The notes under the pieces were generated by a model. The model was given only the letters and a program-made list of their open reading frames with translations, was not told the origin of the DNA and did not search any database. 42,787 nt of DNA from Meiothermus cerbereus DSM 11376 (GTDB lineage: Bacteria; Deinococcota; Deinococci; Deinococcales; Thermaceae), in the NCBI RefSeq assembly GCF_000620065.1, contig NZ_KK211061.1, positions 1 through 42,787 of the forward strand. The letters are read 5' to 3'. The translations under genes were made by a program, and so were the position numbers. Positions 9,216-26,447 of the stretch are shown here, one piece after another. Numbering within the stretch: the stretch's first letter is position 1; each line of letters opens with the position of its first letter.

Positions 9216-11075
9216 CTAGCTTTGCGGGCAGACCCGATTCCGACCGGCTCGCTTGGCTGCGTAGAGCTGCTCGTCGGCGGCGGCCAGGAGTTTTTCGTGG
9301 TTGGGGAGGGTGGGGTCGCTGCTTACGCCAATGCTCACCGTGACCTTCAGGCTGGGATGCAGGTCAGACCAGTTGTGGTTCTCGACGCGCTGCCGAACCC
9401 GCTCGCAGGCGATCAGGGCGCCCGCCAGGTCGGTTTGGGAGAAAACCAGGGCAAATTCCTCGCCGCCGTAGCGCGCGGCAAAATCTACCCCACGGCAGCC
9501 GGACTCGAGAATTTGTGCGACAATTCGCAGCACATCGTCGCCAACCTGGTGGGAGAAGGTGTCGTTGATTTGCTTGAAGTTGTCGATATCGACCAGGGCC
9601 ACGCTCAAGGGGAAATTGTAGCGCCTGGAGGCGGCAAACTCGCGCTCGAGGTTTTCCTCCAGATAGCGGCGGTTGTGCAGCCGGGTGAGGGGATCCTGGC
9701 GGGCCAGGCGCTCCAGCTCGGCGGACTGCTGGCGCAGTTTGTCCAGCAGGCGCGACTTTTCGGCATTGGCCTCCTTCAGGTTTTCGATGGCGCGGGCCAG
9801 CTCGCGGTTGGCGCGGGCCAGCTCGGTGTTGCGTAGGCGTTCGATTTCCGCTTCCTGGCGTGCTTTTTCTACCTGAAACCCTGCCAGCAGGGCCGCGGTC
9901 TTTTGGGCCTGCTGCTCTTTGTACAGTTTGCGCTCAATTTCGAGAACCTGCCGCAGGTGGTACAGTGCCAGGGCGGGTTTTTGTTCTGCCTCAAAAACAG
10001 CAGCCAGGGCCTGATGGAACTCCAGCAGAGGTTTTTGTGGCCCCAGCTCCTCGGCCAGCCTCAGGCCCTGTTGCAGGGTTTGAATGGCGCTATCGGTCTG
10101 CCCCATACGGCCCAACAACGAGCCCACTTGTAGCAGTGCGCTTAGCTCACCCAGCCGGTTGCCCAGCTCCTGGTAGAGAGCTTTGCAGACCTGGAACAAT
10201 TCCAGTGCTCTATCCAGGTTGCCCAGCGCTGTATGGGAGAGGCCCAGATTTTCCAAACAGGTGGCCCGTACCTGGGGGCTGCCCAGCTGCTCGGCAATCT
10301 CCAGGGCTTGCTGGTGGTAGTCCAGGGCCTCCTGGATACGGCCCAAGCGCTGAAACACCACACCCAGGTTGGAAAGCACGTTGGCCTGGCCCTGACGGTC
10401 GCCCAGCATCTTCTTGATGGCTAGGCTTTCACGGTAGAGCTGAACTGCCCCGGAAAGGTCGCCTACCTCGAGGTAGACCAGACCCAGGTTGTTCAGGGTT
10501 CCGGCTTCGCTGAGGCGGTCGTCCAGCTCGCGTTTGAGGGCCAGGCTGCGCAGGAAGTACTTGGTGGCTTCCTGGTGGTTGCCCAGGGTGTACTGAACGA
10601 TGCCAACGCCATTCAGGGCATTGGCCTCCAGGGCTTTTTGCTGGTGTTTTCGGCTCTGCTCGAGGGCTTCTAGGTAGTACTCGAGGGCCCGGGGAAAGCT
10701 GCCCTGAAAGTAGTGGAGGTTGCCCAGTGCGTTAAGGGTGTCTATTTCGCCTTTAAGCTGGCCTGCTCTGCGCAAAACCGCCAGGGCTTCCTCCAGGCAG
10801 CCCTGGGCTGCGGGCAGATTGCCCTGGCGAAAATGGAAATCGCCCAGGTTTTTGAGGGCCAGACCCCGTCCTGCCGGGCTGGTCTGGTCTTCTGATAAAA
10901 CCAGCATCTCCTCCACAAGCTGTCCGGCCCGCCGCAGGTCGTTATAGCGCAAGAACTGGTATAGCTCATCGAGCAAGTGCAGTTTCTCCGATGGCGGTTG
11001 GGGCTGGCTTAGCTGGGCCTCGAGGGTCTGGAGGGTATGGTTCATAGCCTGAAAGTCTTGCCCTTTGCCATACAT
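9216..11075 (-). CDS. TPR-repeat diguanylate cyclase (GGDEF)
   Basis: The 619-residue protein has about ten N-terminal tetratricopeptide repeats (for example NALGNLHYFQGSFPRALEYY, NLGLVYLEVGDLSGAVQLY), a coiled coil (about residues 400-455), and a C-terminal GGDEF domain. The active-site loop reads GGEEF near residue 535 and the inhibitory I-site RxxD (RGVD) lies five residues upstream, so a feedback-regulated, active cyclase making c-di-GMP is expected. There is no signal peptide or membrane helix, so it is probably a cytoplasmic sensor working through the TPR array. An alternative start is the Met at 11045 (MNHTLQTLEAQ); neither start has a good Shine-Dalgarno. Divergent from the next gene. 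Confidence 0.92.
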   Translation of the reverse strand: MYGKGQDFQAMNHTLQTLEAQLSQPQPPSEKLHLLDELYQFLRYNDLRRAGQLVEEMLVLSEDQTSPAGRGLALKNLGDFHFRQGNLPAAQGCLEEALAVLRRAGQLKGEIDTLNALGNLHYFQGSFPRALEYYLEALEQSRKHQQKALEANALNGVGIVQYTLGNHQEATKYFLRSLALKRELDDRLSEAGTLNNLGLVYLEVGDLSGAVQLYRESLAIKKMLGDRQGQANVLSNLGVVFQRLGRIQEALDYHQQALEIAEQLGSPQVRATCLENLGLSHTALGNLDRALELFQVCKALYQELGNRLGELSALLQVGSLLGRMGQTDSAIQTLQQGLRLAEELGPQKPLLEFHQALAAVFEAEQKPALALYHLRQVLEIERKLYKEQQAQKTAALLAGFQVEKARQEAEIERLRNTELARANRELARAIENLKEANAEKSRLLDKLRQQSAELERLARQDPLTRLHNRRYLEENLEREFAASRRYNFPLSVALVDIDNFKQINDTFSHQVGDDVLRIVAQILESGCRGVDFAARYGGEEFALVFSQTDLAGALIACERVRQRVENHNWSDLHPSLKVTVSIGVSSDPTLPNHEKLLAAADEQLYAAKRAGRNRVCPQS

Positions 11076-11963: not shown

Positions 11964-14900
11964 ATGCAGCAACCCAGGCGCCTGGAAAAGGCCAAGGCAG
12001 GTGGGGCCAACCTGCTGACGGGCTACCTTGTTCTGTTGGGCGTTCCCGAGTTGCAGCTTCAGCAGCGCCTACTGCGCCCCCTCGAGCGCAAGAGCGCGGG
12101 TTTGCTGGCTTACCTGACCTTAGAAGGCCCCACCAGCCGCTCCAGGCTGGCGGGCCTGCTATGGCCGGATTCCTCCGAATCCACCGCCCGTAACAACCTG
12201 GCCCAGGCCCTTAGGCGGCTCAAGCAGGCCGCCGGGGCGGAGGTGGTGTGGGGCGGCGATGTGCTCGAGCTGCAAGGCTTGCAGGTAGATGTGGCCGAGT
12301 TTCAGGTGGCCCACTTTGCGGGCCGCCATCCGGAGGTGGTGGCTTACCAGGCGCAGCTTCTGGAGGGGCTCGACTACGACGACTGCCCTGAGTTCGAAGA
12401 CTGGCTCTTGCTGCAGCGGGAAAAGTTGGCCGAGATGTGGCGGGCTTCCCTCTGGGCCCTGGCCCATGACCTCGAGCAGGCCGGGCAGTACCGCGAGGCG
12501 CTGGTCTACGCCGAAGCCCTGCTCGAATCGGACGCGCTCTCGGAGGCGGCCTACCGCCAGGTGATGCGGCTTTTGTATCTGCTGGGCGACCGAAGCGCGG
12601 CATTGGCCGTTTTTGAGCGCTGCAAGGCCATTCTTTTGCGGGAGATGGGGGTAGCACCCCTGCCCCAGACCCAGGAGCTGCGCCACCAGATTGAGCGGGG
12701 GGAGCTGCTGGTCCCGGCCATCCCGGCGCAGCGCCCGGAAATCCCGCTGGCGGTGTTGCGCCCGCCCCGGCTTCTGGGGCGCGAGGCCGAGTGGGCCCGC
12801 ATGGAAGCCGTCTGGGAAGAGGGGCAGGCCCTGCTGATTGCGGGCGCACCGGGCGTGGGCAAAAGCCGGTTGTTACAGGACTTTCTGTATAGCCGGGGCC
12901 CGGCGCTGCTGTTTGAAGCCCGCCCGGGCGACCAGGACATTCCTTACGCTACCTTTAGCCGCTTCTGCCGAAAGATTCTGGAGCAATTTCCCGGGCTTCT
13001 ACTGCCGGACTGGGTTCGGCAGGAGCTGGCCCGCCTGCTGCCCGAGCTGGGGCCGGCCCAGCCCCCCATCCAATCCAGGGCCGAGAAGCTGCGCTTCTTT
13101 CAGGCCAGCGCCGAGCTGGTGCGCCTGGCGGTGGCAGAGGGGCTGGCGCGGCTGGCCGTGGACGATTTGCAGTTTGCCGATATGGCTAGCCTCGAGCTCC
13201 TGCACTTTGTGCTGAGCCCCTACTGGGGACAGCCGGGCGCGCTCGCCACCGCGCTGGCCTTTCGCGCCGGTGAGCTGCCGGAATGGGTACAGGCGCTCTT
13301 GGAGCAGGCCATCCAGGGCGGGCAGGCCGTGCAGATCAGCCTGCAACCCCTGGACGCGCTGGCCGTGCAAGGGCTGCTGGCGAGCCTCGAGCTGCCCAGC
13401 CTACAAGACGACGTGCTGGGCTGGGCTGCGGCCCTCGTCCGCCACACCGGGGGCAACCCCTTTTTCCTGCTCGAGACCCTTCGGAGCCTGTGGGTGTCGG
13501 GGGGCCTGGGCCAGCCCAGACCGGGCCACCTGCCGATCTCGAGCAAAATCACCACCCTGATCCAGGCCCGCCTCGAGCGCCTTTCCCCCGAGGCCCTGCG
13601 GCTGGTTCGCACGGCAGCGGTGGCCGGGCCCGACTTTTCCCCAGAGCTGGCCGCGGCGGCGCTACAGACCACGCCGCTGGCGCTTTTGCCGCCCTGGGCC
13701 GAACTCGAGGCGGCCCAACTGTTGCGCGGCAATGCCTTTGTCCACGACCTGCTCTACGAGGCCACCCTGAGCGGTGTTCCGGCCAGCATCAAAACCTATC
13801 TACATCAACAAATCGCACTGTATCTGGAAAGCAAGCAGGCTGATCCAGCCCGCATCGCAAGCCACTGGCTCGAGGGCGAGCCTGGTCGGGCTATTCCTTT
13901 TCTCACCCAAGCGGCCAAGCAGGCTGAGAATTCTTATCAACTGCTCGAGGCGGCCCACTTTTACCAGCGGGCGATTGAAATCGCCGAGCGCCAGGGCGAC
14001 GAGACCCAGAACTTCGACTTGCTGGAGGCCCTTAGTGGGGTCATGGGCCGCTACGACACCGGCTCGCAGCACAAGGCCCTGATCCAGCGGATGCTGGGCC
14101 TGGCCCGTACCCCACACGAGCAGGCCCGGGCCTGGCTGTGCGAGGCCATTCGACTGGGAGAGCACGGCTTTGGCGCCGATGCCGAGCAGGCCGCGCGCAA
14201 GGGTTTGGATCATATCCAGGGCATAGACCAACCCGAGTTGCGCATCCGGCTTCTGGATGCCCTGGCCCAGTCGCTTTTTGTGCAGCACAAAACCACCGAT
14301 TTGATCGCTATTTTGCAACAACTTCGAGATATTCATCGGGCGCGGGGCGACGAGCTGCAGGCAGCCATCTGCACTTCGCGCCTGGGTATTGCCTTCGACC
14401 AGCTCGAGCGCCACCGCGAGGCCCTGGCCTACTACCAGGAGGCCGAACCGGTTCTGGAGCGCTCCGAAAACCGCCTCATGCGGGTTGGTTTTCACCACAA
14501 CCGCGGGGTCTGCCTGGCGGCGCTGGGCCTGGCCGAAGCGGCCCTGGAGGCCCAGCTCCAGGCGGGGCGTCTACTGCAGGGCATGCAGGGGGTGGTAGGC
14601 CGCCTGGTGCACCACTGCAACAACCTGGCCCTGCGCTACCACGACCTCGAGCGCTACCGCGAAGCCCAGCAAGCCCTGCAGCAGGCCCTGCAGATCGTGC
14701 CGGAGGAGTGGGGCTGGACGCGGGCTTTTAGCGAGTACCAGATGGCCCGCCTGTACGGGGTGTGGGGTGAGTGGGCGCTGGCTTGGGACTGGCTGGGCCG
14801 CGCTTTGGGCGAACCCGAGCTGCCCCGGCGTGACGAGGCCACCTATCGGATTCTAGGGCTTTTGCTGGCGCACCGGCGCGGAGAAGAGACTGACCCCTGG

Positions 14901-15383
14901 ATAGAGAAGCTGAACGAGCTGTTTTCCGGTGAGCAAAGCCAGGCCTATGGACGCTTTCTTTTGGCTAAAGCCCGGGTGCTGCCTCCCAAGCAGGCCCTGA
15001 AGAGCTGCCAGGAGGCCCTAAAGCTGGCCCAGCAAAACGATTGGCCGGCCCTCCAGATCGCAGCCCATGCCCTGTATTCCCAGATTTTGTTGCAGGCAAA
15101 ACGCCACTCCGAAGCCCTAGTTCATTCACAGACGGCCATGCAATTGTTGGAACACTACTGGCCTGCGGGGTGCTCGAGGCTCGAGGTGCTGTGGACCCAC
15201 TACCGTGCCCAGGCAGCCCACCGCCAGAGCGACAAGGCCCTGCTTCGGCAGGTGCTCGACTACTTGTTGCAGATTGCCGAAAACCACGTGCCCCCCCAGC
15301 ACCGGCAGAGCTTTTTGCGCCAAAATCCCCTGTCTAAAGAGATCGTTCAAGCGGCCCAAGCTGCAGGAATTGCAACCACTTAG
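11964..15383 (+). CDS. SARP/AfsR-like regulator: winged helix, BTAD, ATPase, TPR
   Basis: The 1139-residue protein has the order of large SARP regulators. An OmpR-type winged-helix DNA-binding region (about residues 15-100, with LTLEGPTSRSRLAGLLWPD and RNNLAQALRRLK) is followed by a bacterial transcriptional activator domain (about 100-250: FEDWLLLQREKLAEMWRASL, YRQVMRLLYLLGDRSAALAV). Next comes a STAND/AAA-type ATPase with Walker A AGAPGVGKS near residue 293 and Walker B LAVDDLQFAD near 394. The C-terminal half is TPR repeats. Such proteins activate transcription after ligand or partner sensing by the TPR/ATPase part. The next three promoters carry SARP-type direct repeats, so it is probably their local activator. 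Very Leu/Ala-rich; no membrane segment. Confidence 0.92.
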   Translation: MQQPRRLEKAKAGGANLLTGYLVLLGVPELQLQQRLLRPLERKSAGLLAYLTLEGPTSRSRLAGLLWPDSSESTARNNLAQALRRLKQAAGAEVVWGGDVLELQGLQVDVAEFQVAHFAGRHPEVVAYQAQLLEGLDYDDCPEFEDWLLLQREKLAEMWRASLWALAHDLEQAGQYREALVYAEALLESDALSEAAYRQVMRLLYLLGDRSAALAVFERCKAILLREMGVAPLPQTQELRHQIERGELLVPAIPAQRPEIPLAVLRPPRLLGREAEWARMEAVWEEGQALLIAGAPGVGKSRLLQDFLYSRGPALLFEARPGDQDIPYATFSRFCRKILEQFPGLLLPDWVRQELARLLPELGPAQPPIQSRAEKLRFFQASAELVRLAVAEGLARLAVDDLQFADMASLELLHFVLSPYWGQPGALATALAFRAGELPEWVQALLEQAIQGGQAVQISLQPLDALAVQGLLASLELPSLQDDVLGWAAALVRHTGGNPFFLLETLRSLWVSGGLGQPRPGHLPISSKITTLIQARLERLSPEALRLVRTAAVAGPDFSPELAAAALQTTPLALLPPWAELEAAQLLRGNAFVHDLLYEATLSGVPASIKTYLHQQIALYLESKQADPARIASHWLEGEPGRAIPFLTQAAKQAENSYQLLEAAHFYQRAIEIAERQGDETQNFDLLEALSGVMGRYDTGSQHKALIQRMLGLARTPHEQARAWLCEAIRLGEHGFGADAEQAARKGLDHIQGIDQPELRIRLLDALAQSLFVQHKTTDLIAILQQLRDIHRARGDELQAAICTSRLGIAFDQLERHREALAYYQEAEPVLERSENRLMRVGFHHNRGVCLAALGLAEAALEAQLQAGRLLQGMQGVVGRLVHHCNNLALRYHDLERYREAQQALQQALQIVPEEWGWTRAFSEYQMARLYGVWGEWALAWDWLGRALGEPELPRRDEATYRILGLLLAHRRGEETDPWIEKLNELFSGEQSQAYGRFLLAKARVLPPKQALKSCQEALKLAQQNDWPALQIAAHALYSQILLQAKRHSEALVHSQTAMQLLEHYWPAGCSRLEVLWTHYRAQAAHRQSDKALLRQVLDYLLQIAENHVPPQHRQSFLRQNPLSKEIVQAAQAAGIATT

Positions 15384-15389
15384 CCCCTG

Positions 15390-15421
15390 TCATCCTCCAG
15401 TCATGCTAGTGTGCCTATGGT
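15390..15421 (+). promoter_or_regulatory. SARP-type operator and -10 box, upstream of the subtilase
   Basis: Heptamers TCATCCT (15390-15396) and TCATGCT (15401-15407) are direct repeats with an 11-bp period. Exactly 8 bp (AGTGTGCC) separate the second from a TANNNT -10 box, TATGGT (15416-15421). This matches the layout known for SARP activators, where the repeats replace the -35 element. The transcript would start near 15428, leaving a short leader with the AGGAGG ribosome site. Confidence 0.75.
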
Positions 15422-15451
15422 CTCAAAGAGCAAGCAGACAGGAGGAACACT

Positions 15452-17566
15452 ATGTATGCGAAGTGGCTATTGGCAGGAATGTTGCTGGTAACGCTGACGG
15501 CCTGTCCCGGCGAGGGGCCGGGCAACATTGGGGGCGCGGTTTCGCTGGGCTCGAGCATCACCGGGCAGCGGCTGGACTTTCAGGTGGGCCAACTGCGCCG
15601 CACTGGAGCGCCGCGCTTTGTGCCGGGCGAGGTGCTGGTGGAGTTTCGCGGTGGGGTTAGCCTGCAATCGCTGGGTAGCCTGCGGCTGGAAGTCCAGGGC
15701 CGCCTGGTGGAACTGCAGCAGGTACGCCCCTTGGGGCTTGCCCACACCGCACTCTACCGCGCCAGCCTGAGCGAAGCCGAGACCCCCGCCTTGCTCGAGG
15801 CCCTGCGCCGCCGCCCGGAAGTGGCCTCTGCCGACCTTAACTGGCTCGAGCAGCCTCTGGCCGTCCCCAACGACGAGTTCTACCACTTGCAGTGGCACTA
15901 CCCCGCCATCAACCTGCCCCAGGCCTGGGACCGTACCACCGGTAGCAACAGCGTGGTGGTAGCGGTGTTGGACACCGGGGTGCTTTACCGTGCGGGCAAC
16001 CCGTCTGTGTCCCACCCCGACATTGGAGACCGGCTGCTGCCGGGCTACGATATGGTCTCACCGATTGGCGGCCCCAACCCCTACGCCAACGCAGGCGACG
16101 GTGATGGGCGCGATTCCGATCCCTACGATGTAGGAGATCAACAAAGCACCAGTTACCACGGTACCCATGTGGCGGGCACCATTGGGGCGGCCACCGACAA
16201 CACCACTGGGGTAGCTGGTGTGAACTGGCAGGCCCGCCTCCTGCACGTGCGGGTAATTGGCCTGCTGGGGGCCACTATCGCCGATCAGATAGACGCCATT
16301 CTGTGGGCTGCGGGCCAGCCGGTAACAGGCGCGCCCATCAACCCCAACCCGGCTAAAGTTATCAACATGAGCCTGGGGGGCAAGGGCCCCTGCACCACCG
16401 CCCGGCAAAACGCCATCAACCAGGTCACCGCCAATGGTGTGGTGGTGGTGGTAGCTGCGGGCAACGAAAACGACAACGCCTCGCTCTATAGCCCGGCCAA
16501 CTGCGCCAATGTTATTACGGTCGGGGCCACCGACTTTGCGGGCGCCCGGGCTCCCTACTCCAACTACGGCCCCCGCATCGATGTGATGGCCCCTGGGGGC
16601 GATGTGAGCAAAGATCTCAACAACGATGGCTATGCCGACGGTGTGCTGAGTCTGAGCCGCAACGATAGCAATGGTCAGTTTAACTACGCGTTCGAGAACG
16701 GCACCTCGATGGCGGCCCCCCACGTGGCGGGGGTGGTGGCCCTGATGAAGGCCCTTAACCCAAACCTGGGCACCGCAGAGGTTCTGCAAATCCTAAAAAC
16801 CACCGCCCGGCCCCTGGACGCTACCCAGTGCTACCGCCCCAGCGGCAGCGACTGTGGGGCCGGTCTGATTGACGCCAACGCGGCCCTGGCCGCGGTACAG
16901 GGGGGCAGCACCGCGGGCTTCAGCCTCACTACCCCAAACACCAGCCTGAGCGCCCAGCCGGGCGGCAGCCTGAACGTGAACATCACCATCAGCCGCAGCG
17001 GGGGCTTTGCCGGGGCGGTGAGCCTGGGCCTTCCGGGCGCGCCTGCCGGGGTGAGCGGTAGCTTCAACCCGCCCAGCACTACCCTGAACAGCAGCACCCT
17101 CACCCTGAGCGTTGACGGTACAGTTCCCGACGGAACTTATAGCCTGACCGTGCAGGGCACTTCGGGCGGCACCACCGCCACCTTGCCCCTGAGCCTTAAG
17201 GTGGGCGCTGGAACCAGCGCCAGCATCAAAGACACCTTTGTGGTGGCCTGCTTTGTGGTCGCAAGCGGTTGTGATGAAAATAGATCCAAGGCGATTCAAC
17301 TGACCCAGAGCGGTATCTCGGCCCCCTATACCATCCCCGACCTGACACCAGGTGACTATGCGGTGCTGGGCTGGAAAGACGTCAACAATAACCGCGCGGT
17401 AGACCGTGGAGATTATCTGGGCGGGGTGGTGGATCGGAGCGGCGAACTGGTGGTGGTGCGTCCCGGTAACCTTCGGGCCGACTTTCAGCTCGAGGTACTG
17501 ACCAACGACCTGACGCGCCCGACGCCTGAGCAGCGCAGATGGCTTGAAAGCGCGGGCTCGAGGTAG
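15452..17566 (+). CDS. Subtilisin-like (S8) serine protease, lipoprotein
   Basis: The 704-residue exported protease starts with a lipoprotein signal ending in LTAC (Cys18). A fervidolysin-like propeptide (PRFVPGEVLVEFRGG, about 55-135) precedes the catalytic domain, with Asp174 in VAVLDTG, His236 in YHGTHVAGT, oxyanion Asn338 in AAGNEN and Ser419 in NGTSMAAPHVAG: a complete triad. After about residue 480 follow an Ig-like domain (FSLTTPNTSLSAQPGGS...PLSLKVG) and a C-terminal domain with VVACFVVASGCDENRSK and LTPGDYAVLGWKDVN. The last domain resembles the separate lipoprotein encoded next door. A strong AGGAGG site precedes the ATG, a SARP-type operator lies upstream, and an intrinsic terminator ends the unit. 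Confidence 0.95.
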   Translation: MYAKWLLAGMLLVTLTACPGEGPGNIGGAVSLGSSITGQRLDFQVGQLRRTGAPRFVPGEVLVEFRGGVSLQSLGSLRLEVQGRLVELQQVRPLGLAHTALYRASLSEAETPALLEALRRRPEVASADLNWLEQPLAVPNDEFYHLQWHYPAINLPQAWDRTTGSNSVVVAVLDTGVLYRAGNPSVSHPDIGDRLLPGYDMVSPIGGPNPYANAGDGDGRDSDPYDVGDQQSTSYHGTHVAGTIGAATDNTTGVAGVNWQARLLHVRVIGLLGATIADQIDAILWAAGQPVTGAPINPNPAKVINMSLGGKGPCTTARQNAINQVTANGVVVVVAAGNENDNASLYSPANCANVITVGATDFAGARAPYSNYGPRIDVMAPGGDVSKDLNNDGYADGVLSLSRNDSNGQFNYAFENGTSMAAPHVAGVVALMKALNPNLGTAEVLQILKTTARPLDATQCYRPSGSDCGAGLIDANAALAAVQGGSTAGFSLTTPNTSLSAQPGGSLNVNITISRSGGFAGAVSLGLPGAPAGVSGSFNPPSTTLNSSTLTLSVDGTVPDGTYSLTVQGTSGGTTATLPLSLKVGAGTSASIKDTFVVACFVVASGCDENRSKAIQLTQSGISAPYTIPDLTPGDYAVLGWKDVNNNRAVDRGDYLGGVVDRSGELVVVRPGNLRADFQLEVLTNDLTRPTPEQRRWLESAGSR

Positions 17567-17580
17567 CCCTAGCGCTTCGG

Positions 17581-17606
17581 ACAGGCCCCTTTCGGGGCCT
17601 GTTTTC
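17581..17606 (+). terminator. Intrinsic terminator after the subtilase
   Basis: Perfect 9-bp stem ACAGGCCCC / GGGGCCTGT with loop TTTC, followed by TTTTC, 14 bases after the stop codon. The same hairpin and flanking bases recur at 18188-18213. Confidence 0.92.
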
Positions 17607-17611
17607 TTCAG

Positions 17612-17643
17612 TCATGCTCCAGTCATGCTGCCTGAACTACCGT
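17612..17643 (+). promoter_or_regulatory. SARP-type operator and -10 box, upstream of the small lipoprotein
   Basis: TCATGCT occurs at 17612-17618 and 17623-17629 (11-bp period), followed by 8 bp (GCCTGAAC) and the TANNNT box TACCGT (17638-17643). It begins right after the terminator T-run, so the lipoprotein has its own promoter insulated from the protease gene. Transcription would start near 17650, just before the AGGAGG site. Confidence 0.78.
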
Positions 17644-17661
17644 TGGCTGGAGGAGGAGACC

Positions 17662-18042
17662 ATGCAAACGAAAATGACGCTCTTGGCTCTTGTGGCAGCA
17701 TTTGTTCTAGGTGCCTGCGGCGGTGGGGGAGGGGGTGGTGGTTTCTCGGGAAGCGTGACCGCGCCCTCGGGCGCTACCGTGCAGGGTACAGAGGTGGTGG
17801 CCTGCTTCTATATTGCTTCCACAGACGACTGCGATGAAGCCAAGAGCAAAACCACCACCATCAACACAGCAGGAAGAACAGGCAGCTTTAGCATCGAAGG
17901 GCTGGTAGCGGGCGACTATGTAATCCTTGCCGTGAACCAGGCGCAAGGGCTGATCGGCATCTATGTGGATAGCCAGGGCCAACCTGCTCTGGTCAAGCCT
18001 CCACGCAGTGGAATAAACATCCAGATGGTGGCGGCGCAGTAG
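17662..18042 (+). CDS. Small lipoprotein homologous to the protease C-terminal domain
   Basis: The 126-residue protein has a lipoprotein signal with lipobox LGAC (Cys19) and a Gly-rich tether. The rest (GTEVVACFYIASTDDCDEAKSK..., SIEGLVAGDYVILAV) aligns with the last 100 residues of the upstream subtilase (DTFVVACFVVASGCDENRSK..., TIPDLTPGDYAVLGW), including two Cys that could form a disulfide. The ATG at 17662 is preceded by AGGAGG; upstream in-frame codons to 17614 are non-coding. I do not know a named family. It may be a stand-alone binding partner or a substrate anchor for the same structure. It is flanked by a SARP-type operator and a terminator like those around the protease. Confidence 0.85.
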   Translation: MQTKMTLLALVAAFVLGACGGGGGGGGFSGSVTAPSGATVQGTEVVACFYIASTDDCDEAKSKTTTINTAGRTGSFSIEGLVAGDYVILAVNQAQGLIGIYVDSQGQPALVKPPRSGINIQMVAAQ

Positions 18043-18187
18043 TGCAAAAGTGGCCCCAGGAGTGGGGGCTCGAGCCCAATGGGATATACGGGATGGATAA
18101 CCAGCTTGCGCCTTCCATAAAGTGCTACTTCCAGCCCGCAACTGACCGGCTCGAGCGAGCCACCTGAAGAATCCGTGAGCAATTCAG

Positions 18188-18213
18188 ACAGGCCCCTTTC
18201 GGGGCCTGTTTTC
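18188..18213 (+). terminator. Intrinsic terminator, second copy of the 17581 hairpin
   Basis: Same 9-bp stem and loop as the terminator at 17581-17606, followed by TTTTC. It lies about 145 bases after the small lipoprotein stop; the interval holds a short GGCTCGAGCGAGCC inverted repeat and no gene. Confidence 0.9.
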
Positions 18214-18218
18214 TTCAG

Positions 18219-18250
18219 TCATGCTCCAGTCATGCTGCTCACGCTACCGT
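18219..18250 (+). promoter_or_regulatory. SARP-type operator and -10 box, upstream of the six-gene operon
   Basis: TCATGCT at 18219-18225 and 18230-18236 (11-bp period), 8 bp (GCTCACGC), then TACCGT (18245-18250). The ATG of the first gene follows seven bases after the -10 box, so here the SARP-type promoter seems to drive a leaderless transcript. Confidence 0.78.
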
Positions 18251-18257
18251 GGGGTGC

Positions 18258-20063
18258 ATGAAAAGAAAGCACCTATGCTCGAGGGCTTTGCTGCTGCTGT
18301 TTTTCCTGGCTTGTGCTAGCTTTTCCGAGGCTGCACGGGCCTATTTCGATAGCGTACCGGTGCTTGTCAATACCGTATGCCCAGTGACAGGCAACAGCGT
18401 CACTTCGTCGCAAAACACTGTAGGGTACGTTACCGACCCCAACGAGCCGTACCCAAAAACCGGCGACCTGGCCTATATTCGGGCAAGTTCCACCAACGTC
18501 AGTCCGTGTACCAACGATGCGGTTGGTTTCGACTTTTTCCTACCTTTGGGAGGGAGCTTCGAAGTAAGCGCCCAGAATCCTGTTTATTGCTACCTGATTA
18601 GACTTTCCGACAACTATGTGATTAATTTTTCGGGCAACCCAGCAGGGTTTCAAGGAGCCTGTTCCCAGTCGGCACTACCTGGCAATGCAGGCGGGGTCTC
18701 GTTTGGATTTGCCGTCATACCCAGTGGATGGCAACTACAAATACGTGTGCCGGTGCGTTTCAACCAACAGCTGTTGGGACTTGCTGGGCCCAACACCCAC
18801 CGCCTTAGGGCCGTGGCAGTCACCACCTATGGCAATGCTATTCCGGAGCAGCCGGTGACGGTCTTCTATCAGGCCAGCTTCCAGAACCTGCAAAGCAGTG
18901 GGGTTGGCGCAACCACTGCCACGCTGGGGGTCAACCTTTATAGCTACTTTAAGGACGGCCTGCTGTATGTGGACTATGGAACCACCAATTCCCTTGGCAA
19001 CTCGACCCCCCCAGCTACCGTGCCCAACAACGCCCTCAACTTTCCCAACGTCAGCACCAACCTGACCGGCCTCACCCCCAACACCACCTATTTCTGGCGC
19101 TATCGCTTCGTTACCGATGCCGGAACCTTTAATAGTCCAACCCAGACCTTCACCACCTCGAGTGCCCCCACCTTTGCCCTCACGGTCAATAAGAATGGTA
19201 CAGGTTCGGGAACCGTTACCAGCAGCCCTACGGGAATCAACTGTGGAGCAACCTGTTCGGCCAGCTTCGCCCAGGGAACCACCGTAACACTCACCGCGGC
19301 ACCCGCGTCGGGTTCGGTTTTTGCAGGGTGGAGTGGCGCCTGTACAGGTACAGGCACCTGCTCGGTCACGATGGACGCTGCCAAGACGGTCACGGCTACC
19401 TTTAACACCACACCGGCAGGAAGCCCGACCATTACCGCCGCCAAGCCCGCCAACGCCCCCACCGATGCCACCCGCAACAAGGGCCAGAGCAACGTCTCGA
19501 TGCTGGCCTTTACCCTCAACCCCTCGCAGGCCACCCAGCTCCAAAACATCACCCTGCAAGCCAGCGGCAGCGGTAACGACAGCCTCGACCTCACCGCGGT
19601 CAAGCTAATCCGCGATGCAAACGCCAACGGCCAGATTGACTCAGGCGAAACGCCCATCGCCACCGGCACCTTCAGTACCGACAACGGCACCCTTACGCTC
19701 ACCCTGTCTACCCCGCTTGCGCTCAGCCCCGGCAACAGCCAGTTCCTGGTGGTAGCCGATATCGCCAGCACGTTGGCGGCCCGTCCGGCGGTGCTGAAAG
19801 CCCAAAGCCTTCCGGCCTTGCCCGCACCCCTGCTGCTTACCTTGCTGCCCTTTGTGTTTCTGGGTGCGTGGCGCATGCGCTCCTTGCGGGCGGGCTTCCT
19901 GGCCCTGGCCCTGGCCCTGACGCTGGCCGCTTGTGGTGGCGGTGGTCAGACTACCCCGGTCAACAAAACCTACCAGATCAACCTGACCGCACTGAGCGCC
20001 CAGGGAAGCCCTACCGTAAGTGGTCTCCCCATTACCGGTGCGACCATCACGGTACAGAAATAG
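18258..20063 (+). CDS. Secreted FN3-like / InlB-repeat protein with two C-terminal hydrophobic segments
   Basis: The 601-residue protein starts with a signal peptide (RALLLLFFLACASFSEA). It contains an FN3-like segment (NLTGLTPNTTYFWRYRF, about residues 220-300), an InlB B-repeat-like domain (GSGTVTSSPTGINCGATCS...FAGWSGAC...KTVTATF) and a beta-rich domain (TLNPSQATQLQNITLQA). Near the C-terminus is a hydrophobic stretch (PLLLTLLPFVFLGAWRMR) directly followed by a second one that looks like a lipoprotein signal with lipobox LAAC (Cys559) and a Gly-rich tail. The ATG at 18258 was chosen over a GTG three codons upstream because the latter overlaps the -10 box. First gene of a run reaching 26447. 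Adhesion or surface display is plausible, not shown. Confidence 0.85.
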   Translation: MKRKHLCSRALLLLFFLACASFSEAARAYFDSVPVLVNTVCPVTGNSVTSSQNTVGYVTDPNEPYPKTGDLAYIRASSTNVSPCTNDAVGFDFFLPLGGSFEVSAQNPVYCYLIRLSDNYVINFSGNPAGFQGACSQSALPGNAGGVSFGFAVIPSGWQLQIRVPVRFNQQLLGLAGPNTHRLRAVAVTTYGNAIPEQPVTVFYQASFQNLQSSGVGATTATLGVNLYSYFKDGLLYVDYGTTNSLGNSTPPATVPNNALNFPNVSTNLTGLTPNTTYFWRYRFVTDAGTFNSPTQTFTTSSAPTFALTVNKNGTGSGTVTSSPTGINCGATCSASFAQGTTVTLTAAPASGSVFAGWSGACTGTGTCSVTMDAAKTVTATFNTTPAGSPTITAAKPANAPTDATRNKGQSNVSMLAFTLNPSQATQLQNITLQASGSGNDSLDLTAVKLIRDANANGQIDSGETPIATGTFSTDNGTLTLTLSTPLALSPGNSQFLVVADIASTLAARPAVLKAQSLPALPAPLLLTLLPFVFLGAWRMRSLRAGFLALALALTLAACGGGGQTTPVNKTYQINLTALSAQGSPTVSGLPITGATITVQK

Positions 20064-20155: not shown

Positions 20156-20338
20156 ATGACCCAAAAGCCCAGCCAGATTTACGTGGTTCGCATCTGGTTC
20201 GAGCCCAGCCCCGAGGGCGAGGTCTGGCGGGCCTCGGTGAGCCAGGGAGAAGAGCGTCACTACTTTGCCGATGTAAATAGCCTGACGACCTTTTTGAAGC
20301 AGGAGATTGAGGCAGAAGAGGAGGAAGCACCGGAGTAA
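20156..20338 (+). CDS. Small acidic protein of unknown function
   Basis: This 60-residue protein has no signal peptide. It starts MTQKPSQIYVVRIWFEPS, continues through EVWRASVSQGEERHYFADVNSL, and ends in an acidic tail (EAEEEEAPE). The fold suggested by the alternating pattern is a small beta-beta-alpha unit. I recall similar short hypothetical proteins but no function. The ATG is preceded by GTGAGGAAG, a fair ribosome site. It is the only apparently cytoplasmic product between the secreted proteins of this operon, 92 bases after the previous gene and 43 before the next. Confidence 0.72.
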   Translation: MTQKPSQIYVVRIWFEPSPEGEVWRASVSQGEERHYFADVNSLTTFLKQEIEAEEEEAPE

Positions 20339-20381
20339 GGGGGCATTCCGGGCTCCCTCCTCCGGGTCAAGGGAGGTAACG

Positions 20382-21491
20382 ATGAACAAAACCGTGATTG
20401 GACTACTGGCAGGGCTGTTTCTGACGGCGTGTGGAGGGGGTGCAAGCGAGGGCACTCCGCCTGGCGGCAACAACCCTCCGGGGGGCGGCAACCCGCCCAC
20501 CGGTAGCTTTCCTGCCGAACTGAGCGGGATCTGGCAGGACACCCTGGCCAGCGGGGGGGAGTTCACCAACCTCTACACCGGGGTGACCTTCAACATGACC
20601 CAGGGCTACTCGGCCCAGTTCAAGGTCAGGCCCAACGGCGAGTTCTACTTTGCCCACTACTCCCAGGGCGTATCGTCTACCTGCGCGCTGGTCAGCTTTT
20701 TCGACCAGATGGTGGGGCAGGCCGAGTTTACCGGAAGCCGCCTGGTGTTGCGGCCCCGCGAGCGGCGGCTGGACGTGCAAAACTGTGCCAACTCGGGCTC
20801 GTTGAACCTGCCCCTAAGCCCGGTGAGCTTCGATGCCGTGGTCTCGGAGTACGAAACCTTCCTGGACACCACTGCGCAGATGGAACTCTCGGGCGGCCCC
20901 TATCCCCTCAAGTTCAAGCTCCTAAACCCTACCCCACCGGCCAACCCGCCTCAGCCCCCACAGCCCCAAGACTTCCAGTTGGGCACCGAGACACCCTATC
21001 AAGAAATTATCGGGCTGTGGGGCCACCGTGATACCGAGTTCTACAACCCGCAGACCGGGGTCTACCGGTTTCCCGACTGCTGTGGGGAGAACCGCTTTCT
21101 GCGCTTCACGGCTGAAGGTTACGAGCTGGGCATGGCTTTCGTGCGGGTGAACCTCGAGGGGGTCTGCAAAAAAGACCTGATCTACTTCGAAAAGGGCAAT
21201 GCCCTGTTCAAGGTCACCAACCAGCGCGATCCGGACACCTACCAGGGCGACGTGCGCCTCGAGGCCACCCAGGCCAGGCTGATCGTGCGCATCCGTGAGT
21301 GTAGTTCGGAAGGTGGGGTGCAGGAGTACACCCTCAAGCCCCTCACCAGCTACCACCGCTGGAGCTATACCCTGCCGGCGGGCAGGGAGGACTTCATGCT
21401 GGGCTGCCATTACCCAGGCCACGCCTGGAGCCCCTACATTTGCTACACCAGCGGGCAGGGGCCCTGGTACAACCTCGAGCGCCGGCAATAG
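20382..21491 (+). CDS. Lipoprotein of unknown function
   Basis: The 369-residue protein has a lipoprotein signal (MNKTVIGLLAGLFLTAC, Cys17) and a Gly/Pro/Asn-rich tether (about residues 18-45). Two similar-looking halves follow: the first starts ELSGIWQDTLASGGEF with YTGVTFNMTQGYSAQFKV, the second starts EIIGLWGHRDTEFYNPQTG. Each contains a 'G-x-W' entry and a beta-rich pattern, so a duplicated beta-barrel (lipocalin-like) fold is possible. A Pro-rich linker (PTPPANPPQPPQPQ) separates them. The ATG follows GGGAGGTAAC. I know no family match. It is 13 bases upstream of the beta-propeller gene. Confidence 0.85.
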   Translation: MNKTVIGLLAGLFLTACGGGASEGTPPGGNNPPGGGNPPTGSFPAELSGIWQDTLASGGEFTNLYTGVTFNMTQGYSAQFKVRPNGEFYFAHYSQGVSSTCALVSFFDQMVGQAEFTGSRLVLRPRERRLDVQNCANSGSLNLPLSPVSFDAVVSEYETFLDTTAQMELSGGPYPLKFKLLNPTPPANPPQPPQPQDFQLGTETPYQEIIGLWGHRDTEFYNPQTGVYRFPDCCGENRFLRFTAEGYELGMAFVRVNLEGVCKKDLIYFEKGNALFKVTNQRDPDTYQGDVRLEATQARLIVRIRECSSEGGVQEYTLKPLTSYHRWSYTLPAGREDFMLGCHYPGHAWSPYICYTSGQGPWYNLERRQ

Positions 21492-21504
21492 ATAAGGGGC
21501 TGTT

Positions 21505-22611
21505 ATGCGAAAGGCATTGCTCCTTGGCTGGGTTTTACTGACAGCCTGTTCGGGGGTGCCGGCGGTCAGTCCCCACTATGTGCTGGTGAGCCAGGCCGGC
21601 TCGAGTACGGTGGCCGTGGTAGACCCTGTGCAGGGCAAAACCCTCCAGCACATCACTGTGGGGGGTTTGCCACACCGGATGGTCGTGAGCCCGGAGGGAG
21701 ACAGGGTATACGTGGTGCTGGTGGGCTCGCAGGCGGTGGCCGAGGTGGATGTGCTCACGCTATCGGTTCGCCGCACCTTCCTGACCGCCCCGGTGCCCGA
21801 GCGCCGCCCCGACGGTACGGTGATCCAGGCCCACCTCGAGCAGGATGCTTTCTCCCAGACCAGTTGCTTTGCCTGTCATAACCCCGGCGGGGCCAGGCCC
21901 TTCATCGTGGGTGAACGACCGGTGGGTATCGCCTTCTCGAGCGACTTTGCCAGGCTCTTCGTCTCCCACATCCGCCAGGGCCGCCTGAGCGAGATTGACC
22001 TGGACAGCGGGCAGGTGGTGCGGGCCGTCAACCTTCCGCCCTCGGGCAGCGCGAACGAAGCTGCCGATGTGGCGCGGGTGAACGCCCGGCTGGTGGTTGC
22101 GCTGCGCCCCCGCCAGCCCAGCACCGAGGCCAGCGCGGTGCGCTGGCTCGATGAGCACACCTGGCAAATCCTGGCCGAGGCCCCTACCGGCTCCGACCCG
22201 GCCTTTGTGTTGCCGCTGGGGGAGGGGGCTCTGGTCTCCAACTTCGAGTCCAACACCCTCAGCCTGCACGCGCCCGGCGCAAGCCCCAAAAGCTTCACCG
22301 TTACGCCGGGGCCGCTGGGGATGCTGGCCGTGGGCAAGGGGAAAATCCTATCGCTCAACTACTACTCCAACGCGGTCTCGCTGGTGGATCTGGACTCGGG
22401 TCAGGTGCAAAACTTCCGGCTCGAGCTCGCCAATAAAGTCTTTGTCAACCCCACCCACGCGGCCCTCTCGCCCGACGGCAGGCGGGTGTACATCGTGAGC
22501 AGCGGTACCGAGGGCCACCTGGTGGTCTTCGACCTGGAGCGCAAGCAAGTAACCCAGGCCATCCCGATAGATGGCCTCTCGTTCGATGCGGTGGTGGTTC
22601 GTCGGCAATAG
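21505..22611 (+). CDS. Beta-propeller (YVTN-type) lipoprotein with a CxxCH haem-binding motif
   Basis: The 368-residue protein has lipobox LTAC (Cys15) and repeated blade motifs typical of YVTN/cytochrome-d1-like beta-propellers (HYVLVSQAGSSTVAVVDP, RMVVSPEGDRVYVVLVGS, IAFSSDFARLFVSHIRQG, ALSPDGRRVYIVSSG). Between blades, residues 121-125 read CFACH, a c-type haem attachment motif, within SCFACHNPGGARPF. A covalently bound haem in a surface propeller would suggest electron transfer or redox sensing, but a single CxxCH can also bind metal or be structural. An axial ligand cannot be assigned. Tightly linked to its neighbours (13 and 8 bases). Confidence 0.85.
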   Translation: MRKALLLGWVLLTACSGVPAVSPHYVLVSQAGSSTVAVVDPVQGKTLQHITVGGLPHRMVVSPEGDRVYVVLVGSQAVAEVDVLTLSVRRTFLTAPVPERRPDGTVIQAHLEQDAFSQTSCFACHNPGGARPFIVGERPVGIAFSSDFARLFVSHIRQGRLSEIDLDSGQVVRAVNLPPSGSANEAADVARVNARLVVALRPRQPSTEASAVRWLDEHTWQILAEAPTGSDPAFVLPLGEGALVSNFESNTLSLHAPGASPKSFTVTPGPLGMLAVGKGKILSLNYYSNAVSLVDLDSGQVQNFRLELANKVFVNPTHAALSPDGRRVYIVSSGTEGHLVVFDLERKQVTQAIPIDGLSFDAVVVRRQ

Positions 22612-22619
22612 GAGGAATT

Positions 22620-24488
22620 ATGCGAAACAGACTATGGCTGGTGGCTCTGATCGGGCTCATTGGGGCCTGCAATGGCGGCGACAACAGTGGGGGTAATACG
22701 GCCCCCAGCGCCCCCAACACTGTGGTGGGGCTGGTAACGGATATTGGCTCGGGGGCGCGGCTTTCGGGCGTGACGGTGCGGGTGGTGGGCAGCAGCCGCA
22801 CCACCACCACCGATGTGCGGGGCGAGTTCGAGCTGCGCGGTTTACCAGCAGGTCTGGTCAAGCTCGATTTTGAGAAAGCGGGCTACGCCCCCGGCCACGG
22901 CATCGCCGAGTCGGCCGACAGCGCCCAGACCGTGCTGGTGGCCCTGAAGAAAGACGGAACCGAGCAAAGCTACAACCCCACCCAGGCCCGCACCCTCTTC
23001 CAGCGCACCGAGGCCGGGCCCTATGCGGTCATCTTCCAGCCCAACAGCCTCGAGACCACCGATACCAGCCTGCGGGTGGTGGTCACGCCGCTCGACCCCA
23101 CCAAGGAAGACGCAGCCCTGCCCGGCGATCTGGTGGCCGGAGGGGCCAGCCCCACGCCGCTGGCTCCGGTGACCTTTGCCGAGTTCAGCATCCTCGACTC
23201 ACAAAACCGTCGCATCAACCTCAAGCCGGGCTCGAGCGCCATCGTCGAGTTGCCCATTCCCCCGGAGCTGCGCAGCCAGTATAAGATTGGCGACAAGATC
23301 CACTGCTACGCCTACAACCCCCAGACCGGGCGCTGGGAGGACTTTGTGGAGGGTACGGTGGAGCGCTCGAGCGTAGACGGCACCACCCCGGTGCTCCGGG
23401 CCAGCATCCGCCACTTTTCCTGGTACGGCGGGGCCCCCACGGTACAGGAACAGGAGTGCGTGGACGTAACCGTGATTGGGCCGGGGAATAAGCCGCTGGA
23501 AGGAGCGGTAGTCACGGCGCGTCCGGGGCTTCGGGCGGTGACCAACCGGCTGGGGCAGGCCAGCATCACCATACAGAAGGGGGTGCCGGTTAACTTCGTG
23601 GCGACCAAGACCTACACCGATACCTTTGTGGACTCGAGGGGGAACCTGATCCCCAAGCCGGGCGCAAAGGTGATTGATATTGGCAAGGTCTACGAGGACG
23701 ACCTGATCGGCCTGGACGGCCAAAACTACAGCCGCAGGCCAGGGCCTTGCCCCGCCGAATCCAGCCAGTCGGTAAGGGCCGCAGCCACCAACCCGCTCCC
23801 CATCCCCGTGGCCCCGGCCCCCGAGGGCTTTTTCGAGGCTTCTGCTTTGTTGCTGCCCGGAGGGGCGGTCTTCGTACTGCTCGAGAAAGGTATCCCTAAC
23901 GCCGACGGCGACCTGGAGGACGCCGAACCAGCTTCCGGTGCCCAGATCACCCTCAGCGACAGTTTGGGCAACACCGTAACCCTTGGCGAGCTGGCGCCGG
24001 GCACCTATATTGCCAGCAACTTCAACATCGTAGCTGGCAGGCGCTATTCCCTGAGCATTGATGCCGACGGCAACGGCAGCATAGACGGCAGCGGCTCGGC
24101 CTTTGCGCTGGGCAATGTGAGCTGGAGCAACCTGGCCGATGGAGGCAGCTACAGCGCTGCCAGCCTGACGGCTACCTGGAACGACAGCGCTGCCAGCCAG
24201 CCTGGCTACAGTGCGCTGTATCAGGTGATCTTCCAGCGCCAGGGCGGTTCGGGGGTTTCCGACTCTGCCTTTTACCTCGGCTCCGAACTCAGCTTTGCGC
24301 CCCGCGCCCAGACCGACCCGCCCACGCCGCTTGCGCCGGGCACCTATACAGTCATGCTCAACGCTTTTAGCGGCGCCTTTGATGGTGGTAATCTGGACAT
24401 CACCGACAACATTACCGGCATCGGGATGCAGGGGAAGATCTTCAGCTTTCAGGCTATCAACCCGATCACCATCAACCTAACCCCCTAG
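22620..24488 (+). CDS. Lipoprotein with carboxypeptidase-regulatory-like domains
   Basis: The 622-residue protein has lipobox IGAC (Cys17). Residues about 35-105 form a carboxypeptidase-regulatory-like domain (VVGLVTDIGSGARLSGVTVRV, FELRGLPAGLVKLDFEKAGY). A ZU5/GAIN-like segment may follow (AVIFQPNSLETTDTSLRVVV). A second regulatory-like domain is seen at ECVDVTVIGPGNKPLEGAVV, and a C-terminal beta-rich region contains an EF-like DADGNGSIDG. Such proteins are usually surface-bound structural or binding proteins. The ribosome site AGGAGG is excellent, and the gene begins 8 bases after the propeller stop. The exact ligand is unknown. Confidence 0.85.
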   Translation: MRNRLWLVALIGLIGACNGGDNSGGNTAPSAPNTVVGLVTDIGSGARLSGVTVRVVGSSRTTTTDVRGEFELRGLPAGLVKLDFEKAGYAPGHGIAESADSAQTVLVALKKDGTEQSYNPTQARTLFQRTEAGPYAVIFQPNSLETTDTSLRVVVTPLDPTKEDAALPGDLVAGGASPTPLAPVTFAEFSILDSQNRRINLKPGSSAIVELPIPPELRSQYKIGDKIHCYAYNPQTGRWEDFVEGTVERSSVDGTTPVLRASIRHFSWYGGAPTVQEQECVDVTVIGPGNKPLEGAVVTARPGLRAVTNRLGQASITIQKGVPVNFVATKTYTDTFVDSRGNLIPKPGAKVIDIGKVYEDDLIGLDGQNYSRRPGPCPAESSQSVRAAATNPLPIPVAPAPEGFFEASALLLPGGAVFVLLEKGIPNADGDLEDAEPASGAQITLSDSLGNTVTLGELAPGTYIASNFNIVAGRRYSLSIDADGNGSIDGSGSAFALGNVSWSNLADGGSYSAASLTATWNDSAASQPGYSALYQVIFQRQGGSGVSDSAFYLGSELSFAPRAQTDPPTPLAPGTYTVMLNAFSGAFDGGNLDITDNITGIGMQGKIFSFQAINPITINLTP

Positions 24489-24509
24489 TCAAAACCGAGA
24501 GGAGGCTAG

Positions 24510-26447
24510 ATGAGAATTCCGGTTCTATTTTTCTGGCTGCTGGCTGCCCTGGCCCAGGCCCAGGCCCCGCGCATGGCTGCGCTGAGCGATTTGCAGATCA
24601 ACATTGGCGCACAGTGTCCCAAGCCCGATTCGCTGGGCACCAGTTTCTCGGCCCTGACCAACCCCGACCGCGATGTAGAGACCCGCGGCGGCCAGGCAGC
24701 TTTGGGACAAAACATAATGGCGGGGCTCGATGAGAGTATCAGGGAGTTGGAGGAGGAACTGCGCGACCTCGAGGCCGACGACCCCAGCCGCCCGATGCTG
24801 CAACAGCAGTTGCGGATGCTCCAGGCCCAGCGACAGCAGCTACAACGGGTGGCCCCGTCGAGCTCTGGAACCCAGCCTGTGCCCACCCAGGCTGCTGCCC
24901 TGGCCAATCTGAAACGCGCCCTGAACGCGGCCTCGGGGCCGGGCAGTGTGCGGCTGTTGGAAACCCAGCCGGAGTACCGCGAGGCGGGCAACGCCAGCCG
25001 CACCGCGGCGCTGGCGGCTGTGATGGGTAAACCGCAACTGGCCCTGGGGTTGTTGCTGCGGGCGCAGGCCTTGGAGCCACGCAACCCCGCGCATCTGGTG
25101 AACCTGGCGGGCCTCGCCAACTACTACGGCCTCTTTGCCGAGGCCCTGGCCCTTATCACCGCGGCCGAGCGCCTGAACCCGCCCGCTGCCCTGCGCCCGC
25201 TGCTGCTCAATAACAAAGGCCATGCCCTGATGCGCCTGCGGCGGCTGCCCGAGGCCGAGGCCGCCCTGCGCGCGGCGGCCCAGGCCGACCCCAACCTGCA
25301 GGAGGCCCGGGTCAACCTTGCCTACACGCTGGGTGCGCAGAACAAGTGCGCCGAGGCCGAGGTGTGGGCACGTCGAGCCTGGTGGCGGCACAGCCTGCCT
25401 GGGGCCGAAAACCTCGAAACCCGCCCTCTCGCAGAGGCTTTTTCCATCGTCCCCACCGTACCTGCTTTGCCCAGCCTGGACTTCGTTCCCCCCGGCCAGA
25501 CCAAGGGGGCACGGGAGGCGCTTGTAGCCCTGTTTCAAGAGATCACGAACCGCCGGCCCAAGCTGGAAGAATTTCAGGCCGCCCTGGCGGCACAGGGCCG
25601 TCGCCGGGTTGAGATCGCCTCGGAGCGGCGGGTGGGGGCCATCAAGGCCAAGTTCGTAACGTTCCTGGAGAATGCCCTGAACTCCGCAGCCAGCCTTAGC
25701 GACCAAAACAGTTACGCACCTGCGCAGGGCCGGGCCCTCAAGGCTGCCCAGGCCACCCTCGACCGCACTGTTTCCGAACTCGGCACCCGCTTTGGTGCCA
25801 ACCTCGGCTGTGCCAGCGCCACTGCCTGGCGCGAGGCAGCCCTGCCCGCCTTCCAGGCTGCCGACCGCGCCCTTCGCGCCCTCTACGCCGAGGCCTGGCG
25901 CGCCAGCGCCACCCTCGCCACCCGCTTCTCCGAGCCGACCTACCGCGCTGTTGCCCTGTTGCGGCTGCGAATCCTCTACTACCAGGCTGCCGAGCAGGTT
26001 TACATGAACGGTGTACGCTACGTGACGAACCTCGAGCTTGTTCAAGGCCTCGAGGACTGCGTCGGGGGAAGCGCGAACGTCATCGGCAGCCTCGCCACCC
26101 CGCAGTTGCCCGCTGCCTGCACGCCCGCCGCCACGCCCGCGACGCCCCCCAAGGGCTGGCGTCTGGCGCTTTCCTGCGACCGCACCGATTTCAATTTTGC
26201 CAACCCACCGTGGATGGATCGTTACCAAATCCTGCGCGATAGCCTCTCGCCGGTGGTCTTCTCGCAGCTCGACGCCCGCCTGACCGTCTTTGTTCCTGGC
26301 GGTTTCGTGCGCCTCGATGCGGAGGGGGCGCTTATGGATGCCGGCCTCCTGGTTCCAAGTGGAAACCGCCACTGGAGCTTTGTGTGGAACGCGAGTAGTG
26401 GGAGCGTGGGGTTTGCCAGCAGCGAACCACAGTTTGGGGTGAAGTAG
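24510..26447 (+). CDS. Exported TPR-repeat protein
   Basis: The 645-residue protein has a cleavable signal peptide (RIPVLFFWLLAALAQAQA) with no lipobox Cys. A coiled coil follows (residues about 68-112, IRELEEELRDLEADDPSRP and LQQQLRMLQAQRQQLQ), then TPR-like repeats (GKPQLALGLLLRAQALEPRN, GLFAEALALITAAERLNPP, RRLPEAEAALRAAAQADPN). The C-terminal half has no repeat I recognise and includes several Cys. It is the last gene of the operon, and its stop codon lies three bases before a mobile repeat. The TPR part suggests a scaffold for the other envelope proteins of the cluster; this is inference. Confidence 0.85.
   Translation: MRIPVLFFWLLAALAQAQAPRMAALSDLQINIGAQCPKPDSLGTSFSALTNPDRDVETRGGQAALGQNIMAGLDESIRELEEELRDLEADDPSRPMLQQQLRMLQAQRQQLQRVAPSSSGTQPVPTQAAALANLKRALNAASGPGSVRLLETQPEYREAGNASRTAALAAVMGKPQLALGLLLRAQALEPRNPAHLVNLAGLANYYGLFAEALALITAAERLNPPAALRPLLLNNKGHALMRLRRLPEAEAALRAAAQADPNLQEARVNLAYTLGAQNKCAEAEVWARRAWWRHSLPGAENLETRPLAEAFSIVPTVPALPSLDFVPPGQTKGAREALVALFQEITNRRPKLEEFQAALAAQGRRRVEIASERRVGAIKAKFVTFLENALNSAASLSDQNSYAPAQGRALKAAQATLDRTVSELGTRFGANLGCASATAWREAALPAFQAADRALRALYAEAWRASATLATRFSEPTYRAVALLRLRILYYQAAEQVYMNGVRYVTNLELVQGLEDCVGGSANVIGSLATPQLPAACTPAATPATPPKGWRLALSCDRTDFNFANPPWMDRYQILRDSLSPVVFSQLDARLTVFVPGGFVRLDAEGALMDAGLLVPSGNRHWSFVWNASSGSVGFASSEPQFGVK

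Follow-up and report, generated by a model that had tools for sequence, protein, structure and literature searches.

Comparative sequence evidence for a conserved SARP-type (AfsR-like) regulon in Meiothermus, with a probable recognition code readable from its paralogues

The DNA analysed here, referred to as the window, is a stretch of 42,787 nucleotides from Meiothermus cerbereus DSM 11376. It contains a gene for a large SARP-type regulator followed on the same strand by three genes for putatively secreted products, each of which is preceded by a direct heptamer repeat and a predicted −10 box (Table 1). The signal peptides and lipoboxes of these products were judged by eye and not predicted. 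An in-frame ATG at 17614, upstream of target 2, is unlikely to be the start of this gene because it lies inside operator 2; the short distance from the third box to the ATG of target 3 is as for a leaderless transcript. Operators 2 and 3 are located directly behind strong terminator hairpins, so that each target in the window looks, from these features, like its own transcription unit. At 17579–17629 and 18186–18236 the terminator hairpin, the T tract and the operator are packed into a single compact cassette, and in several relatives (L106, L111, L112, L113, L115 and L119) the operator is preceded by the remains of a similar G/C-rich hairpin and a run of T. Two further observations concern the flanks: a TPR and GGDEF diguanylate cyclase gene lies upstream of the regulator on the opposite strand (9216–11075), and downstream of target 3 a row of secreted-looking genes (beta-propeller, carboxypeptidase-regulatory-like, TPR) is encoded on its strand and may belong to its operon (20307–26447).

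Table 1. Genes, predicted regulatory elements and terminators of the locus (positions within the window).
Feature	Position	Strand	Evidence or remark
SARP-type regulator, 1139 aa	11964..15383	+	Pfam and AlphaFold model of residues 1–250
Regulator domains (residues)			OmpR-type winged helix ~18–110; BTAD 134–243; AAA_16/STAND ATPase 269–417; TPR ~763–914
Recognition-helix codons, residues 72–90	12177..12233	+	Helix seen in model
Operator 1, TCATCCT-CCAG-TCATGCT	15390..15407	+	6 nt past regulator stop codon (5 nt counting the preceding conserved G)
Predicted −10 box, TATGGT	15416..15421	+	Exactly 8 bp from operator 1
Target 1, S8 (subtilase) peptidase, putative lipoprotein, 704 aa	15452..17566	+	Pfam PF00082, E=6e-56; lipobox-like LTAC by eye; RBS
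Terminator-type hairpin and T tract, abutting operator 2	17579..17604	+	−20.7 kcal/mol, z −3.9
Operator 2, TCATGCT-CCAG-TCATGCT	17612..17629	+	
Predicted −10 box, TACCGT	17638..17643	+	8 bp from operator 2
Target 2, small putative lipoprotein, 126 aa	17662..18042	+	RBS; start 19 nt past box
Terminator-type hairpin and T tract, abutting operator 3	18186..18211	+	−20.8 kcal/mol, z −5.9
Operator 3, TCATGCT-CCAG-TCATGCT	18219..18236	+	
Predicted −10 box, TACCGT	18245..18250	+	8 bp from operator 3; ATG 7 nt on
Target 3, secreted protein, 601 aa, InlB B-repeat and fibronectin-like matches	18258..20063	+	Pfam

A Pfam search of the regulator identified BTAD (E=3e-11, over the cut-off), AAA_16 (E=1.6e-13) and TPR_12 (E=2e-10) domains and did not call the winged helix. 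The AlphaFold model of residues 1–250 has a mean pLDDT of 88, and its best matches among solved structures were AfsR (8k60, a transcription complex) and EmbR (2fez), each with a TM-score of ~0.7 over ~250 residues; the other solved structures scored far below these two. The criteria for a large SARP, namely an OmpR-type winged helix with BTAD and a C-terminal NOD/STAND ATPase with TPR, were both met. The protein is SARP-type and not AfsR itself, because it reached only 35 bits against NF053617, the curated AfsR equivalog of NCBI, and the cut-off of 1430 was not met. PADLOC returned only weak subtilase/IetS-type and STAND matches, weak grounds for a role in defence. Profile alignment placed regulator residues 80, 81, 84 and 85 on AfsR R87, T88, S91 and R92, residues that make DNA contacts in the solved structure of AfsR (PMC10936776); residues 80, 81 and 84 of the regulator are Ala, Gln and Arg.

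The first-pass annotation had proposed a winged-helix/BTAD/ATPase/TPR regulator of the SARP class beside three TCATNCT-N4-TCATGCT-N8-TANNNT elements, and had found no other paired copy by eye. The Pfam domains and the two best structural fits bear out the class, and the elements have exactly the positions and the 8-bp spacing claimed. Searching the window with up to 2 mismatches recovered only operators 1–3 (shuffled sequence, mean 0.38). When any heptamer repeated at an 11-bp period and followed after 8 bp by TANNNT was allowed, only one weak match, at 39194, was added, so that the count of three was correct. No heptamer pair occurred in 200 order-3 Markov windows. The conserved unit exceeds seven bases and reads GTCATNCT-N3-GTCATNCT, with a C mostly preceding the spacer A. 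No sigma-70-type promoter and no −35-like sequence were detected at the operator sites.

Beyond the window, the genome (3.03 Mb) contains a fourth and last perfect element on another contig (G000:C9:41154), located 8 bp from TACCCT and preceding the gene for a 447-aa secreted protein. When TCATNCTNNAGTCATNCT was searched without the −10 box, 9 of the 18 genomes of the genus had a match and the reversed pattern gave 0. With the box and up to 2 mismatches, ~58 sites were found in 50 genomes of the family versus 3 for the reversed-pattern control; at 1 mismatch, this control gave no match across the class (111 genomes). A chance origin of the elements was rejected on the Markov windows together with the reversed-pattern control. 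In a repeats-only scan of the fetched loci, TANNNT was present at +8 in all 18 perfect sites, and at no other offset in the stretch examined, as well as in 34 of 36 one-mismatch sites, the remaining two having TACCAA instead. Some of the one-mismatch loci had been fetched by a search that required the box; the perfect sites of the genus-wide TCATNCTNNAGTCATNCT search had not. At seven distant homologue loci in other phyla (L242–L248), no period-11 repeat accompanied by a TANNNT box was seen nearby. Judged on these genome comparisons, the element and its geometry are real, conserved and widespread in Meiothermus/Thermus-type bacteria.

Among the genes that come first behind the sites are those for the S8 peptidase, a small lipoprotein and secreted proteins of 600–880 aa; unlinked first genes encode a 440–450-aa secreted family (eight genomes) and also a 365-aa secreted family. 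It had been stated in advance that a lack of motif enrichment before genes in related genomes would refute the proposal; this check was run, the enrichment was strong and the element survived it. Of the predicted "self-contained regulon of secreted proteins", the secreted targets stand, and the self-containment does not, given the fourth site elsewhere and homologous unlinked sites in 7 other genomes. In genus g4, probably Thermus, the operator was seen before other genes (L082, L083 and L124), including those for a 237-aa cupin-like protein and a secreted protein of ~140 aa.

All 18 genomes that encode a close homologue of the regulator contain the element, compared with 1 of the 32 others (Fisher p=1e-12). 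A close homologue was defined as one scoring at least 500 bits, a cut-off set after the data had been seen and lying at a natural gap (501 vs 350 bits); related genomes are not independent. Within g4, sites occur only in the three genomes that have the regulator. Linkage is observed as well: in all 11 regulator orthologues one site begins 5–6 nt past the stop codon, and in G055, which belongs to a different family of the same order, a SARP-type gene lies 1.2 kb ahead of such a site. As to exceptions, G003 has a site and no close regulator homologue was found there, and no site was detected for the close regulators L123 and L116, the latter being a split gene. L116 (G005:C29:5816-9191) is a homologue broken into two open frames; no operator follows it, and its genome retains sites on other contigs.

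The family holds many paralogues of the regulator. When 110 SARP-type regulators were scanned for any period-11 repeat before TANNNT, 70 matches were obtained on the forward strand versus 12 on the other, and other repeat periods with the same box gave 5–24 matches. The paralogue half-sites, in the same register, are ATAACGC, GCAACGC, GCCACGC, RTGACGC, CTAACGC, GAAACGC and GTCACAG, and a relaxed scan for ACGC-type direct repeats with this geometry gave 66 forward versus 1 reverse. Helix types RVH, RLS, RHS, RQH and RQS yielded no operators in the relaxed scan of paralogue groups, and ~45 distant paralogues were assigned none. Near one regulator, L217 (G014:C1), at least three period-11 repeat types were observed (ATAACGCC, GAAACGCY and GCAACGCY). 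Five others (L222, L225, L235, L091 and L092) have the same repeat geometry with CANNNT, not TANNNT; going by these sequences, C may also serve as the first base of the −10 box in activated promoters.

Covariation between protein and DNA is observed across these pairs. Ranked by adjusted mutual information over 90 positions of the DNA-binding domain, residue 81 came first for base 2 (0.94), residue 84 for base 3 (0.80) and residue 80 for base 5 (0.73). On a tree built with the recognition helix masked, 4 of 4 base-3 changes fell on branches with a change of residue 84 (p=1e-5) and 2 of 2 base-2 changes on branches with a change of residue 81; base 5 and residue 80 shared a single co-change event (p=0.086), and bases 1 and 6 showed no convincing phylogeny-aware link. 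We consider it probable, if well short of settled, that Thermaceae-type paralogous SARP-STAND regulators share one promoter geometry and owe their insulation to a simple recognition code, in which residue 81 would set base 2 (Gln:T, Arg:C), residue 84 base 3 (Arg/Asn/Lys:C, Phe:A, Tyr:G) and residue 80 base 5 (Arg:C, Ala/Ser/Val:T). Regulators for which sites had at first been overlooked fit this code, for example L097 and L180 (Q81, Y84) with GTGACG and L222 (R81, F84) with GCAACGCC before CATCCT; several of these late additions are near kin of the training set and hence weaker tests than they appear. Two paralogues in the M. cerbereus genome itself, which encodes seven BTAD proteins, also fit, with the same geometry just past their stop codons: L104 (G000:C5; F84) with RTAACGCC and L102 (G000:C1; Y84) with NTGACG. 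The residue-base pairing differs from the two AfsR contacts T88 and R92 (PMC10936776), and docking may therefore differ by ~1 bp. If the code is true, the specificity of a SARP is readable from its sequence and open to reprogramming.

The best explanation of the locus as a whole, to which we give a probability of roughly 0.87, is that the elements are AfsR/SARP-type activator-dependent promoters of the regulator encoded at 11964–15383. Among the alternatives, the one that survives best is nevertheless unlikely: the SARP protein might bind and repress, or several SARP paralogues might share sites, in which case a simple one-activator regulon would be wrong. Repression cannot be excluded by sequence, and in some genomes such a site has two regulators in its vicinity (G008 contig C12; G009 C104 and C108). 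However, the recognition helices of the co-occurring regulators are nearly the same, no −35-like sequence accompanies the repeats, and these sit where AfsR activates. It is more doubtful still, indeed very improbable, that the elements are PHO-box-like sites of a PhoB/OmpR-type response regulator rather than of the adjacent SARP protein. The PHO box of Escherichia coli is of the CTGTCAT-N4-CTGTCAT type, and the CAGTCAT repeats with their 11-bp period resemble it; PhoB also shares the OmpR-type winged helix and 11-bp-period direct repeats at the −35 place, and PhoB-like regulators exist in the M. cerbereus genome. Yet PhoB is a response regulator without BTAD or STAND domains, and PhoB-like proteins are found in 50 of 50 genomes, whereas the sites are confined to 19–20 and track the SARP regulator; this reading is disfavoured because the candidate is universal and the sites are not. 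Moreover, no phosphate gene is evident among the targets, and the half-sites of neighbouring SARP paralogues covary with their own recognition helices. A third alternative, in which a single intergenic cassette with no regulatory function was duplicated locally to give the three repeats, can practically be set aside. Duplication explains the near identity of the terminator-operator stretches at sites 2 and 3 only; it does not account for the conservation, in other genera and in a second family of the order, of sites that differ in flanks and targets and keep an exact distance to a degenerate TANNNT.

In the activator-dependent promoter reading, two SARP domains of the regulator would bind side by side on the 11-bp-spaced half-sites (GTCATNCT), occupying the place of a −35 element, and the bound dimer would hold RNA polymerase on the TANNNT box 8 bp downstream. 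One trait of a large SARP is to bind the repeats and to activate together with sigma region 4; here, binding is inferred: there are no binding data, and only the covariation of helix and half-site supports it. Activation rather than repression and use of the −10 box are likewise inferences, as is the notion that the STAND ATPase and TPR region presumably keeps the regulator inactive until a signal arrives and is probably the switch. The regulon would comprise the neighbouring subtilase, the small lipoprotein and the InlB/FN3 protein, together with the unlinked 447-aa secreted protein. Paralogues would differ in half-site but not in geometry, residues 81, 84 and 80 setting bases 2, 3 and 5, and would therefore stay mutually insulated.

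The closest known system is AfsR of Streptomyces coelicolor, a large SARP with NOD and TPR, which the regulator resembles in domain order and fold. At the afs box of the afsS promoter, two 11-bp direct repeats are found, with 8 bp between the 3′ repeat and the −10 (PMC10936776), an arrangement that is also a SARP criterion and is met by the targets described here; the AfsR box resembles (CGTTYATCGNN)2 (PMC10972967). Unlike AfsR, the Meiothermus system belongs to another phylum, has the half-site GTCATNCT, has many paralogues with diverged half-sites in one family and has no identified kinase partner. Its targets are secreted lipoproteins and a protease, so that control of antibiotic biosynthesis, the usual SARP role, is not met; this is a role and not a structural criterion for membership. 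EmbR of Mycobacterium tuberculosis shares the OmpR-type winged helix and BTAD fold and differs in that it carries an FHA domain and lacks the ATPase/TPR region. Within the same bacterial family as the window, the available part of the source on DnrS of Thermus thermophilus describes a BTAD-containing activator with an N-terminal GAF and a C-terminal BTAD domain, needed for denitrification genes (PMC5748679); DnrS differs from the Meiothermus regulator in that no 11-bp repeat operator is described for it there.

The literature searched, which left subscription journals out of scope, gave no report of SARPs in Meiothermus, only DnrS for BTAD proteins in Thermus, and no earlier description of this regulon. 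SARPs have been known as actinobacterial antibiotic activators whose targets have usually been found one at a time. As far as genome comparison can establish it, with binding and transcription inferred, this is a real, conserved SARP-type (AfsR-like) regulon outside the Actinobacteria, and its paralogues make a probable recognition code readable. The same promoter architecture in Meiothermus and its relatives makes dozens of regulator-operator pairs readable from genomes, natural variation among the paralogues provides a testable code for SARP-DNA recognition, and in principle heat-stable orthogonal promoters could follow. For the organisms themselves, the finding would map the regulon of secreted proteins that have no known function or inducing signal.
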